From the NCBI GenBank assembly GCA_013215865.1, contig JABSQL010000018.1, positions 1 to 16,886 on the forward strand: DNA of 16,886 bases. The letters run 5' to 3'. How positions within the stretch are numbered: position 1 is the stretch's first letter; the number at the start of each line of letters is the position of its first letter. The notes below the pieces were generated by a model. It worked only from the letters and a program-made list of their open reading frames with translations, ran no database searches and was not told the DNA's origin. This document shows, in pieces, positions 3-5,840 of the stretch. The position numbers and the translations under genes were made by a program. The stretch comes from Candidatus Margulisiibacteriota bacterium (GTDB lineage: Bacteria > Margulisbacteria > Marinamargulisbacteria > DT-59).

Positions 3-1589
3 ATGAGTACAAATTGTCGGTTACTTTTAATGGAGGCTGTAAAACGCGGAAACAGTACATTGGTTAAATTGATGAGCGAGTTTCCTAAACTCTATCACTT
101 TACCCCGGACGGTTCAGATTCTCTGGTCCATTTTGCCATCGAGTATGAGCAATGGGATATAGCATTAGCGTTATGTCGAGATCCTCATTTTAGAGAAATA
201 GAAAGCAAGACTTCTATTTTAGAGAAAGTAATGGCAACCAATGATCCTGTTCGAATCGGGTCTTTTATGGCGCTTTATGCGACCCAACAACTTCCAGAGT
301 CTGAAATATCCCATTTGGAAGATGTGATACGGAAGGGAAATTTGACAGATTTTTGCCGCTTTCTTGAAATAGGGTTTGATCTTAATCAACCGATTATAGA
401 TAGCGATATTATTTTGGGAGACTATATTTTACCCCTGATCATTTCTGAGGGGAAAATAGAGCTCTTATCATTGCTTTCGGGGGTCATGGGTGGGGTAGCT
501 AATCGCGAGTTAGTTGTTGAGGCTCCTGTATCGAAACTAACTGTGATGGAATTATGCCATTTACAGTCAGATGACATAAAGGGTCCATTATTGGACTTTC
601 TTAAAAAAGAAATGAGACAGGCCACTTCTTATGAGCTGCTTTGTATTGAACGTATACAGGCCGCGATCGCATTATCGGGAGATGAATTTAGACATCGGTT
701 TGATATGGTGTGTTCTCTGATACAAGATCTTTCAGACATGATGCAAGCCGATACGAGTCGGGTTATCACTGATCAGATACAGGCAATGGTGCCCATATGT
801 ATATCTTCAGGTTTCAATGATGTTGTGGCGTTATTGGATAAAGTTGGATTCATTCAAGAGGTAGATCTGCGTTGGTTTGCATCTGCTGAACATAATGAAG
901 AGATGTTTATATTTTTGCTGAATGTACTTTCTAAAACAACCCCTTTATCCACAAAAAATGTGGATCGATTACCCTTCTGGAAGGTGAGTCAAGAGGAGAC
1001 ATTACATGCTCCGATTGGATTGATATTGCTTCATGTGGCGATTGAATATGGGTTTCTTGATGTGGTGAGAACGATTTTAGCTAGTGACAGCATTGATGTG
1101 AATGAGGTTATTGACGGACAAACAGCGCTCCAATTGGCAGCAGCCAAAGACCTCAATATTTCAAAAGCATTATTAGGTGCCAAGGCAAACCCCTTCTTTG
1201 TCAACCATGAGGGAAGGCGTGCCATAGATATAAGTCCAGATCTTGAAAGAGGGTTAAGAGATTTTCAAGTGAACATTGAAAAACGTATATCAGCTATGGT
1301 GAATATACCAATACTTAAGATTCTAAAAAAATCAAAAAATATGATTGAAGCCATGGTGGTATTGGTAATGGAAGATCCCATGAGCTGCTCTTATTTAATT
1401 GATGTGTATTATGAATCTAAAGTCCAATTTGGACGAACAACAAGATGGTTTGGTTTGAAGAAAGTGGATCCTGAAAAAGATAAACGAAGTGCCTTGATGG
1501 CTGCTTTGGAAAAGAGTGGGTGTTTGGCTGCCACAAAACATAAAATCAGAGAGCTCATTAACCGTTCCCGATTTGGAGAAGTGATATGA
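3..1589 (+). CDS. Ankyrin-repeat-like protein, possibly 5'-truncated by the window edge
   Basis: The reading frame is open for 528 residues. It begins at an ATG only two bases from the window edge, so no ribosome binding site or upstream stop can be seen and the true start may lie further upstream. The clearest ankyrin-type helices lie at about residues 338-411: a segment beginning LHVAIEYG at residue 343, then DGQTALQLAAA at residue 371, then EGRRAIDIS at residue 403. Weaker copies of the same helix-turn-helix pattern appear at about residues 5-60, 104-130 and 140-160, so the protein may be a degenerate ankyrin solenoid. Residues 415-528 resemble nothing I recognise. No signal peptide or membrane segment is evident. 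Ankyrin repeats usually mediate protein-protein binding. The stop overlaps the start of the following SecA-like gene by four bases, implying coupled translation and a shared role. The function is unknown; ankyrin identity is moderately supported by eye only. Confidence 0.7.
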   Translation: MSTNCRLLLMEAVKRGNSTLVKLMSEFPKLYHFTPDGSDSLVHFAIEYEQWDIALALCRDPHFREIESKTSILEKVMATNDPVRIGSFMALYATQQLPESEISHLEDVIRKGNLTDFCRFLEIGFDLNQPIIDSDIILGDYILPLIISEGKIELLSLLSGVMGGVANRELVVEAPVSKLTVMELCHLQSDDIKGPLLDFLKKEMRQATSYELLCIERIQAAIALSGDEFRHRFDMVCSLIQDLSDMMQADTSRVITDQIQAMVPICISSGFNDVVALLDKVGFIQEVDLRWFASAEHNEEMFIFLLNVLSKTTPLSTKNVDRLPFWKVSQEETLHAPIGLILLHVAIEYGFLDVVRTILASDSIDVNEVIDGQTALQLAAAKDLNISKALLGAKANPFFVNHEGRRAIDISPDLERGLRDFQVNIEKRISAMVNIPILKILKKSKNMIEAMVVLVMEDPMSCSYLIDVYYESKVQFGRTTRWFGLKKVDPEKDKRSALMAALEKSGCLAATKHKIRELINRSRFGEVI

Positions 1590-4462
1590 CGTTCTTCAAA
1601 ATTCTAGCTGTTCCGAATAAAAGCGCCCTTTTTGGAAAGAGGACCGGGAGTATGTGGGAAAGGAGCCAAGTCAAAAAGTTCTTCATGTCAATGAATGAGA
1701 AGGCAAAACCAGTATACTTCACATTTTACGGACTTTTAAAAGAAGCAAACAGAAAGGAAATTTTATCCCAATCTGATGAATGTATATTTCTTGAACTCGC
1801 GCATATGTATGGTTCCACTATTCCAGGTAAGAAATTGTTTGCGCTCATTAATTGGGGTGTCAGAATCAAAAAAGAGCTGGATTCTGATATCTTTCAATGG
1901 GTATTTATCGACGTTGCCCGCCAGAAGCGCACATCTTTTGAAAATTTACTTTTGCTATGTCAAACCATTTCAGATATATCTTCACTGGTTCCCGAGAAAG
2001 CAGAGGAATGTATAGAAAGGGTCATGGACAAAGGTATACAAGATATCAATACGATCATTTCAGAATTAAAGAAAGAAAAATCGGTGATCATGGCAGAATT
2101 ATTCCCGGAAAAGCCAATAGGAGAAGTCAATCACGAATTTTCTACCTTAAATAGAGATGTTGAACATCTTTTAGATACGTCCGAATTGGGAGAGGTTATC
2201 GCAGATTATTTAGACATTCAACGGTTGGGGAAGGAGATGGTGGCTTTACCCGTTTCTGATTTGCAAAGCCAAGCAAAAGAAATAATAAGAGCCGGTCACT
2301 GGTCTCCTGGTGATACAACACGATTTTTAGCCATTGCTCGGGAACTCATACGGCGAACGTATCAGATTTTTCCGTATAATACACAAATGTATACGGTGTT
2401 AGGGTTGTTACGATATAAACCTGAGTCACTCTCGGGGCGATTGGCACAAGTGAGAACAGGTGAGGGTAAGTCAACCATCATCGCTTTGCTTTCAGTGTTA
2501 TTGGCGGCTAAGGGGTTGAGTGTAGATATTGTGACCTCTTCCCGGTATTTGGCAAAGCGAGATGAAAAAAAATATCGTCCATTTTTTGAACTATTTGGGT
2601 TATCATCCAGTCATATATGTATGGAAAGGCCCACATCGAAGAATTTTTCTGGAGATATTGTGTTTGGAACGAATACAGATTTTGAGTTTGCCATTATGAG
2701 GGACCAGTTGTTTAATGCACAATCACGGGTCAAAAACGTAGGAGATCGTGTTGTACCGAAGCCTTTTCATGCCGTGATCGTTGATGAAGTGGATAATATG
2801 TTTATTGATAAGTCACGAAATTCTGCACGAATGGGTGTGTCTGCAACGTCAAAAGACCAGTGGATTTTCCGCCTCATTTTCAGTTTTGTAAGCTTTGGTA
2901 GAGCGTCAGGCTTTGATCCGGTGAGTGATTTTAAAGCACGTCTCAAGCATATTGATCCTGATAGGCAATGGGAATTCAGTGATTTTGATATCCGAAAATG
3001 GATTGTTAGTGCTCAAGGGGCCCTCACAGAATATGTAGAAGGTAGAGACTACGTGGTAAAAATTGAGGAAAATATAGGCGATGATGGGTCAAAATCCCAT
3101 CAAAAATCGATTGTCATTATGGATTACCAACACACAGGGCAGCTCAGTACGGGAAGCCGTTGGCAAAATGGAATACATGAATTTTTAGAGCTCAAACATG
3201 GGATTAAAATGGGACAGAAATCAAAGACAGGTGCCGCCATGGGGCATCCCGTATATTTTGGAGAATACGATCAGCTATTTGGCTTATCAGGGACAATGGG
3301 AAGCCGGGTAGAGAGAGAAGAGATCCAAAACGTTTATGATGTGGATACATTTGATGTACCTTCGCATCTTACCAATAGAAGAGTAAATTTACAGCCTGTA
3401 TATCAGCACACAAAAGAGGAGTATTACACATATATTTTTAGCGAAATAGACAAAATGAAGGCACTCGGGCGTCCCGTGTTAATTTTGGTGAGAACCACCA
3501 ATGATAGTCTCGAAATATCCGCAAAAATGAAAGAAAAACACATGACGCATCATGTGTTAAATGCCATTCAGGAAGAAGATGAGGACTATATCATATCTCG
3601 GGCGGGGAATGCAGGAATGGTTACTGTTGCCACGAATACAGCGGGCCGCGGTACCGATATTATATTGTCGAGAGACGCACTAGAGGCGGGAGGGCTTCAT
3701 GTCATATTCGGATTTTATCCCATCAATGATCGGGTGGAGGCACAGGGAATTGGACGGGCAGGGCGCCAGGGGCAGCCAGGTTCTTCACAAATTGTGGTTC
3801 ATTCACAAGACGAAGCCATGGCCCAGATTCAGCTGTTTGAAAGAGAAGAATTATTTCGAGCCCTACTTCTTGGAGATGCATCGAAATTGGAAATAAAATC
3901 AGAACAAGTGTTTGAGAAGTTAAAAGCAGCCAGGGTGCAGAATACACATATGGAGTCCATATCCCGGCAACATCATGCAAAAATAGAACAGATTAATCAT
4001 GAGATGCTGACGCAATTCTATGACAAGCTCAGGGTATGGTATCAGGCCATAGATGACCTGTACTTAGAGGCACTTTCTGCCAAACTTGCCAAGCAACAAT
4101 TGACCAAAGTTGTTCCTGAAAAAACGGAGGATGGCTATATACTTAGCCTTGGTAGAATGTTGGACAAACTGATTTTAGAGAAAAATCTTAAAGAATCTAG
4201 ATACCGTACCGTGCTTGAAGGAGTGAAGCGTTACATTGAAACCAAATGTATTTTAAAGCCTTGGGCGGATTTTTATAGTCAATTGGGAGATGTGTATCAA
4301 CAGTGTTCCCTCAATGGACCACAACTTGTAGAAGAAGCCTATGTAGAAGAAACAGAGAGGCAGTTTAGAGAATTATTTGATAAATTTGAGCCTATTTTCC
4401 AGAATTCAGATACCTCTTTTCGAGGGTATTTTCGGCAATGGCTTGGCATTGAATTTTTATAA
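1586..4462 (+). CDS. Divergent SecA-like ATPase (not canonical SecA)
   Basis: This 958-residue protein carries the DEAD-like motor of the preprotein translocase ATPase SecA. Visible motifs are a Q-motif glutamine at Q267, Walker A TGEGKST (K295), Walker B DEVD (400-403), a preprotein-crosslinking-like segment at about 490-545 (TGQLSTGSRWQNGIHE), the LSGTMG motif, AGRGTD of the second nucleotide-binding domain (686-691), and GIGRAGRQG with candidate arginine fingers R724 and R727. In housekeeping SecA, Walker A lies near residue 105, so about 190 residues are extra at the N terminus and match nothing I recognise. The C-terminal 200 residues look helical and lack the CxC...CH zinc tail that binds SecB. 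The start is supported by GGAG at 1575-1578, 7 nt upstream. The ATGA overlap with the ankyrin-like gene suggests one functional unit. It may be a specialised SecA paralogue or a motor for another process; its substrate cannot be read from the sequence. Confidence 0.85.
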   Translation: MTFFKILAVPNKSALFGKRTGSMWERSQVKKFFMSMNEKAKPVYFTFYGLLKEANRKEILSQSDECIFLELAHMYGSTIPGKKLFALINWGVRIKKELDSDIFQWVFIDVARQKRTSFENLLLLCQTISDISSLVPEKAEECIERVMDKGIQDINTIISELKKEKSVIMAELFPEKPIGEVNHEFSTLNRDVEHLLDTSELGEVIADYLDIQRLGKEMVALPVSDLQSQAKEIIRAGHWSPGDTTRFLAIARELIRRTYQIFPYNTQMYTVLGLLRYKPESLSGRLAQVRTGEGKSTIIALLSVLLAAKGLSVDIVTSSRYLAKRDEKKYRPFFELFGLSSSHICMERPTSKNFSGDIVFGTNTDFEFAIMRDQLFNAQSRVKNVGDRVVPKPFHAVIVDEVDNMFIDKSRNSARMGVSATSKDQWIFRLIFSFVSFGRASGFDPVSDFKARLKHIDPDRQWEFSDFDIRKWIVSAQGALTEYVEGRDYVVKIEENIGDDGSKSHQKSIVIMDYQHTGQLSTGSRWQNGIHEFLELKHGIKMGQKSKTGAAMGHPVYFGEYDQLFGLSGTMGSRVEREEIQNVYDVDTFDVPSHLTNRRVNLQPVYQHTKEEYYTYIFSEIDKMKALGRPVLILVRTTNDSLEISAKMKEKHMTHHVLNAIQEEDEDYIISRAGNAGMVTVATNTAGRGTDIILSRDALEAGGLHVIFGFYPINDRVEAQGIGRAGRQGQPGSSQIVVHSQDEAMAQIQLFEREELFRALLLGDASKLEIKSEQVFEKLKAARVQNTHMESISRQHHAKIEQINHEMLTQFYDKLRVWYQAIDDLYLEALSAKLAKQQLTKVVPEKTEDGYILSLGRMLDKLILEKNLKESRYRTVLEGVKRYIETKCILKPWADFYSQLGDVYQQCSLNGPQLVEEAYVEETERQFRELFDKFEPIFQNSDTSFRGYFRQWLGIEFL

Positions 4463-5042: not shown

Positions 5043-5840
5043 ATGACAGAGAATGACCAGGTGGAATCAACTGCGATAGTAGAAGGGCTGGAAGCTCAAG
5101 AAGAGCCGCCAAAAGAAGAAGAGGTATTGCAGGCTGAAGTCACTGAGACTCCAGAAGAGGATAAGGCTCCAGAAGAGGATGCGAAAGCACCTGTTGATAC
5201 GGAAGAAGAGCCGTCAGCTGAGAATACTGAGAGTAAAGATGATACTTCTGATTCAGATGACGTTCAATCTGATGGTGACGAGAAAGTTGAGGAAGCGACA
5301 CCGGATGACGGTCGTCAATGGTTCATACTTCAGTGTTTTACAGGACAAGAGCTAAAGGTCAGCGCAAGGATACAGCGGCTAGTTGATGAAAAAAAGTTAG
5401 AAAGCAAGGTATTGAGGGTATTGGTGCCTGAAGAAGAAACGATTGAAATTCGAGATAACAAGCGATTTGAAAAGACATCTCGCATATTTCCAGGGTATGT
5501 ATTTATTCAGATCATAATAGATAGCCAGCTTTGTTTTGAGCTGAGTCGAATAACGGGAGTCGCCAAATTTGTGGGCACAAAAAGTACACCAACGCCTGTT
5601 ACGGATGATGAAATATTAAAAGTGCTTCGAAAAATAGGGGATAAAACGAAAAAAGTTGAAGTTGATTTTGAAGAAGGGGAGGTGATTAAAGTGATCGGTG
5701 GACCGTTTAGGGGATATTCTGGATCGATTTCGGAAATTAATCCTGAGAAGGGAAAATTAAAGACATTGATATCAATATTTGGCAGAGAAACACCTGTAGA
5801 GCTCGAGTTTGATCAAGTAGAGAAGGCGGTAGCGAGATAA
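5043..5840 (+). CDS. nusG: Transcription elongation/antitermination factor NusG with acidic N-terminal tail
   Basis: NusG binds the RNA polymerase clamp, suppresses or modulates pausing, and links polymerase to Rho or ribosomal protein S10. The conserved part starts near residue 91 with [13 protein letters not shown] (NGN domain, with the FPGYVFIQ motif further on). It ends with a KOW domain at about residues 209-262 ([16 protein letters not shown]). This core of about 175 residues is the normal length. The odd part is an extra N-terminal segment of about 89 residues made mostly of E, D, A, P, T and S, with no predicted fold. The start is well supported: AGGGGTG at 5028-5034 lies 8 nt before the ATG, and no ATG lies near the NGN boundary. 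The stop is followed one base later by rplK, so the genes are translationally linked. The call is certain; the role of the tail is unknown. Confidence 0.95.
5149..5180 (+). repeat. Two-copy tandem repeat (18-nt period) inside the NusG acidic tail
   Basis: The 14-mer CTCCAGAAGAGGAT occurs at 5149-5162 and again at 5167-5180, giving an 18-nt, six-codon period. It encodes two consecutive PEED units (PEEDKA then PEEDAK). Being in frame, it suggests that the tail grew or varies by duplication without disrupting nusG. Confidence 0.8.

Follow-up and report, generated by a model that had tools for sequence, protein, structure and literature searches.

The window analysed here, 16,886 nucleotides, is contig JABSQL010000018.1 (G000:C90) of a Candidatus Margulisiibacteriota bacterium, taken from its first base; the genome is a draft of 2.2 Mb in 495 contigs and is 78.5% complete. 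RpoB comparison points to Margulisbacteria: among the 120 matches listed, 12 have a taxon in their name, of which 7 are Margulis(ii)bacteria or Marinamargulisbacteria (68-76% identity), 4 plain 'bacterium' and 1 'Proteobacteria bacterium' (74%), and the two best after the window itself reach 79% and 77%. At its start lie an ankyrin-repeat open reading frame (ORF) and the gene for a divergent SecA-like ATPase, which precede rpmG, tRNA-Trp, secE, nusG and the rpl/rpo operon (Table 1). An earlier note on the same DNA had proposed these two genes as a coupled, undescribed module, and both ORFs and their ATGA overlap are where it placed them; a four-base gene overlap is also present in one Legionellales pair (L251). 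What the note described as an ankyrin protein is indeed an ORF with ankyrin repeats (Pfam Ank_2 E 3.7e-12, best stretch at residues 338-396), but it is probably not a complete protein: it begins two bases from the contig edge, so its N-terminus is not fixed, and its relatives are far longer.

Table 1. Features of the ankyrin/SecA-like gene pair in the window
Feature	Position	Strand	Basis or remark
Ankyrin-repeat ORF, 528 aa within the contig	3..1589	+	Starts at contig edge; probably C-terminal part of a larger protein
Best-scoring ankyrin repeats (Ank_2)	1014..1190	+	Pfam
ATGA stop/start overlap of the ankyrin and ATPase genes	1586..1589	+	
SecA-like ATPase, 958 aa	1586..4462	+	ORF, Pfam, NCBIfam, homology, predicted model
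N-terminal extension of ATPase, residues 1-197	1586..2176	+	Before the SecA-aligning stretch; predicted all-helical
Walker A GEGKS, residues 292-296	2459..2473	+	
DEVD box, residues 400-403	2783..2794	+	
SGT, residues 568-570	3287..3295	+	
GRGTD, residues 687-691	3644..3658	+	
GRAGRQG, residues 723-729	3752..3772	+	
C-terminal helical region of ATPase, residues 743-953	3812..4444	+	Predicted model; no SecA_SW match or zinc tail

The ATPase combines an intact SecA motor with marked departures from the housekeeping protein. It matches the Pfam families SecA_DEAD (E 9.3e-46) and P-loop_SecA (E 6.9e-30), and its length, motif set and homology are far beyond what chance would give. According to the structural model the SecA fold is retained: residues 198..952 align to 14..778 of SecYEG-engaged SecA from B. 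subtilis, and a long helix is predicted at 772-821 as in a SecA scaffold. The three features that the earlier note had singled out, namely complete motor motifs, about 190 extra N-terminal residues before Walker A and a missing C-terminal zinc tail, are all borne out. GEGK stands at residue 292, against residue 107 in the canonical SecA of the same genome, a difference of 185 residues, and a Foldseek search of the PDB with residues 1-197 returned no match at E ≤ 0.001. The window ATPase has no SEC-C domain, whereas the genome's own canonical SecA carries one, and the zinc tail was found in 0/111 members of the ATPase family compared with 14/26 canonical SecAs. SecA_SW (PF07516, wing/scaffold) gave no match in the window ATPase at E ≤ 1, while the canonical SecA of the genome, used as a control, scored 186.8 bits; the family is also absent from the full Pfam lists of 48 members and is not among the 25/27 families listed for 46 further members. 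The pattern LR..[IVM].LR, which we take to mark the two-helix finger, occurs in 0/111 family members and 12/26 canonical SecAs, a test of moderate power because the canonical set is itself mixed. The earlier note had allowed that this ATPase might be the only SecA in the genome, which is not the case: a canonical secA of 828 aa with a SEC-C tail sits on G000:C50. The window ATPase shares 33% identity with it over the matched part, and in our tree a branch of support 100 sets off the canonical SecAs, and the ATPase family lies apart from them.

The pairing of the two genes recurs outside the phylum. Using the same ATPase profile (E ≤ 1e-130) we surveyed 143 genomes of Legionellales, the order to which the Legionellaceae bin L076 belongs, and found the ATPase family in 15 of them, at 17 places. 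At 12 loci the SecA-like gene is not fused and follows immediately on an ankyrin ORF of the same strand; L251 has an upstream ankyrin ORF and an ATPase that is itself fused to ankyrins, and fusions also occur at L253 and at L252, a weak match (E 9e-5) whose 5' end is cut off. Defined as a same-strand ankyrin gene directly upstream or fused, the pair is present in the window and at 15 of the 17 Legionellales loci. Of the 16 loci having an upstream neighbour, 13 carry a same-strand ankyrin ORF there, none of the downstream neighbours at the surveyed loci is an ankyrin ORF, and the remaining ORFs include two (2/62), both in L241. The ankyrin model used for the counting was derived from a consensus of the repeat, and Pfam confirmed ankyrins in 4/4 giants tested. 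Both genes are under purifying selection in Legionellales: dN/dS is 0.12-0.28 in four pairs of ATPase genes, and two pairs of ankyrin genes gave 0.27.

Extending 11 of these loci upstream revealed that the ankyrin partner is a giant, with ORFs of 2286-2663 aa that hold 13-22 ankyrin matches, the first at residue 1008-1227. The region ahead of the ankyrins (the N-region) is conserved, with a mean column identity of 38% (8/11 aligned), and the sole Pfam match in the N-regions of four giants is a marginal one to RNase_H_2 (E 0.048). At L253 the N-region, ankyrins and a SecA-like core are joined in a single ORF of 2765 aa, in which the N-region match runs past one TGA and the core fails the GEGK[ST] match. 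The N-region was detected (E ≤ 1e-10) in 13 of the 143 Legionellales genomes, 12 of which are among the 15 with the ATPase, as against 1/128 genomes without a strong ATPase match (Fisher p 6e-14, kinship ignored). The informative part of this co-occurrence is the rarity of the N-region elsewhere, because its model was built beside the ATPase. In G098 the N-region and ATPase matches are on separate contigs. Another margulisbacterium carries an N-region match (G027:C135:10592-10969, E 4.8e-16) in a 628-aa frame and has no family-level ATPase.

Searching the window's own genome with the N-region led to contig C400 (E 1.3e-17 and 7.2e-13; profile E 4.2e-27 and 1.1e-19), which terminates inside a 638-aa ORF that contains N-region blocks. 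Compared with L260, this ORF shows one block of 63% identity (46 aa) and another of 26% (133 aa), and it also has the short block VIGGCGM. It is preceded in the same frame by a 435-aa ORF, with one TAG between them that the N-region match spans. Ankyrins in the relatives start soon after the GGCGM block, approximately where C400 stops and the window could begin. With an N-region at the end of C400 and a window ORF that starts at a contig edge, the window ankyrin ORF probably represents the C-terminal portion of a giant partner, and C400 and C90 are likely parts of one gene, a link that we infer. Other contigs of this genome also hold ankyrins, and a further weak N-region match lies at G000:C417:3367-3564 (E 8.1e-7).

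Recurrent adjacency and fusion argue that the two genes constitute one functional unit, and the pair looks like a real protein-handling module. SecA is the textbook bacterial export motor, and SecA-type motors hold the polypeptide in a clamp between the motor and cross-linking domains. We propose that the giant protein, with its N-region and ankyrin repeats, and the SecA-derived ATPase would act together, the ATPase retaining a polypeptide-gripping motor and having shed sequence features by which SecA is bound to the housekeeping Sec route. The loss of SecA_SW, the finger motif and the zinc tail suggests that the motor is no longer on that route. The long ankyrin surface would be a natural target binder, so that the ankyrin protein may recognise a target and hand it to the motor, which would then unfold or thread it. 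The targets would most likely be eukaryotic host proteins, and the reading that we prefer, which we judge about evenly balanced between right and wrong, is that the two genes form one unit acting as an effector-like, ankyrin-guided unfoldase or remodeller. A host-directed role is favoured by the ankyrin, TPR or F-box domains attached to family members, by the six members with an assigned taxon (Legionella nautarum, Neochlamydia, three Chlamydiales/Chlamydiae bins and one Burkholderiales bin) and by three reports of SecA-like genes considered below, as far as the available excerpts go. VirB4-type ATPases gave three matches over the Pfam cut-off in the genome, and such a system would be a possible delivery route. 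A bolder form of the proposal, which we offer tentatively and hold to be distinctly less probable, is an undescribed machine of two subunits, or sometimes a single chain, in which a SecA motor was retooled away from SecYEG into an ankyrin-guided unfoldase/translocase for foreign proteins and has spread by horizontal transfer between protist-associated bacteria that belong to different phyla.

Several observations weigh against this interpretation. The family-level ATPase score is reached by one of 74 phylum genomes, several of them incomplete (the window's own, 1021 bits; next 403.5), so the recurrence of the pairing that the earlier note had looked for in related genomes fails within the phylum and holds in Legionellales; the module reading likewise stands on the separate canonical secA and the recurrent pairing, and falters in the organism's own phylum. 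Neither gene was found upstream of secE-nusG-rplK in the 18 testable class relatives (BLASTP E ≤ 1e-4 against ORFs ≥ 45 aa, upstream stretches of ~2.7 to 6 kb); 19 class relatives were fetched, of which one starts at secE and is untestable, and G010, with an rplK match, was left out. The cassette is specific to the window's genome among the genomes examined, and because it was found solely there it was probably acquired horizontally. The Legionellales loci are not independent, since L245, L246 and L247 are ~97% identical, L249 and L250 are 93% identical and L240 and L241 come from one genome, and two of the 17 (L254 and L255), which pair together in the tree far from the others, have no upstream or fused ankyrin partner. 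The strict motor motifs are not family-wide (GEGK[ST] 103/111, DE.D 90/111, GRGTD 96/111, GR.[GA]RQ 87/111). As to the join with C400, its gene carries the in-frame TAG (L269 9991-9993), through mutation or assembly error; BLASTP of the 435-aa ORF against the L260 N-region gave nothing significant (best E 0.46); the ends of C400 and C90 do not overlap exactly over any length from 10 to 199 bases; and the window resembles the Legionellales ankyrin stretch weakly (E 2e-4 over 44 aa). A search of the genome for an ADP/ATP translocase gave no match, as did the controls. Ankyrin repeats bind promiscuously and abound in genomes of this kind, and complex formation, unfolding, delivery and the host target are deduced from sequence.

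Among the alternatives, the idea of the earlier note, a SecA2-like accessory translocase whose cargo, passed through SecYEG, would be the giant ankyrin protein or substrates that it selects, fares best, and we nevertheless regard it as unlikely. The note's further suggestion, that the ankyrin protein could take over the part of SecB or of the zinc tail in recognition, is likewise hypothetical. The motor motifs, the alignment of the model to SecYEG-engaged SecA and a preprotein cross-linking domain in 92/94 family members (E ≤ 0.01) are all compatible with it, and NCBIfam SecA and SecA2 models do match the window ATPase; however, every score is far under its curated cut-off (for the SecA2 models 225.5 of 930, 250.6 of 1085, 188 of 725 and 190.2 of 1100), and the missing SecA_SW, finger motif and zinc tail point away from the Sec route. 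It is more doubtful still that a horizontally acquired unit is decaying here, its ATPase gene intact and the upstream part of its partner interrupted. The in-frame TAG between two same-frame ORFs and the absence of the unit from this position in the class relatives would fit such decay, but an assembly error may account for the TAG, the window's gene may not include C400, the SecA-like ORF and its motifs are unbroken, and the Legionellales genes are under purifying selection. Hardly better placed, and marginally behind, is a conflict or defence module directed at phages or competing bacteria, in which a large recognition protein would work with a helicase-like motor. Its sporadic distribution, its mix of recognition repeats and an ATPase, and weak PADLOC matches (the motor with DpdF, E 0.0012; the ankyrin stretch with PDC-M72A, E 0.0003) are in keeping with this; yet what is matched are the generic motor and ankyrin portions, neither of the two N-region ORFs on C400 has a PADLOC family match at E ≤ 0.01, and five of the six members with a taxon belong to Legionella or Chlamydiae, lineages that live in amoebae. 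That an ankyrin gene and a divergent SecA are merely neighbours, as could be supposed from the window alone and from the lack of conservation in its phylum, is highly improbable given that the pairing recurs in a second phylum, where the ankyrin part, if there is one, invariably lies immediately upstream or is fused.

The known systems nearest to the pair each share some features with it and differ in others. Canonical SecA agrees with the window ATPase in its motor domains, its motifs and the fold predicted overall, and differs in the N-terminal, SecA_SW and zinc-tail features set out above. Accessory SecA2 proteins (TIGR03714, TIGR04397, TIGR04221, NF012136) likewise occur as an additional SecA beside the housekeeping one and lack the zinc tail, but the window ATPase is outside their curated limits and has an ankyrin partner. 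SecA-like domains are also found in host-associated bacteria, as adjacent eukaryotic-like secA genes in Wolbachia (wBol1_1091/1092; PMC3639933) and among the effectors of Amoebophilus (PMC3482391), although the excerpts available of these papers mention no ankyrin partner. Legionella fallonii lfa2470, a SecA DEAD-like gene of unknown function, resembles the ATPase by its description; it is listed as transferred from eukaryotes, and the available part of that report mentions no ankyrin partner (PMC4256840). The partner has ankyrin repeats in common with ankyrin-repeat effectors of intracellular bacteria, and differs in being a giant with an uncharacterised conserved N-region beside an ATPase gene. 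Literature searches of open-licence papers, as far as their text was available, found no description of an ankyrin/SecA-like gene pair. If our reading is right, a SecA motor has been turned to a different use in protein handling, probably where the bacterium meets eukaryotic hosts, which would hint at host association of this margulisbacterium; an intracellular margulisbacterium is on record in the accessible part of one report (PMC6784892).

Further SecA-like proteins were observed alongside the family. A third SecA-like ORF of the window's genome (L221, G000:C374, 1-4791), 1596 aa long and 5'-open, diverges far more in its core and is reminiscent of the eukaryotic-like SecA giants known from endosymbionts. 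Plasmid CP113870.1 of the ciliate endosymbiont Candidatus Megaera polyxenophila (L181, 1-11792) encodes two tandem SecA-like domain proteins of ~5225 and 1589 aa, which resemble the adjacent Wolbachia secA genes as these are described in the excerpt of PMC3639933. In a tree with four giants the C374 and Megaera proteins were not joined to the window ATPase, with very long branches and the deep forks left open. Two IMG/VR virus contigs (L179 and L171) carry SecA-like proteins in frames of 1132 and 3555 aa, one of which groups with canonical SecA and the other with a Megaera giant. Family member P0054 bears F-box domains, a hint of a link to the host ubiquitin machinery. Downstream of the pair, the window's NusG (5043-5840) has an acidic N-terminal extension of ~90 residues ahead of the NusG domain.
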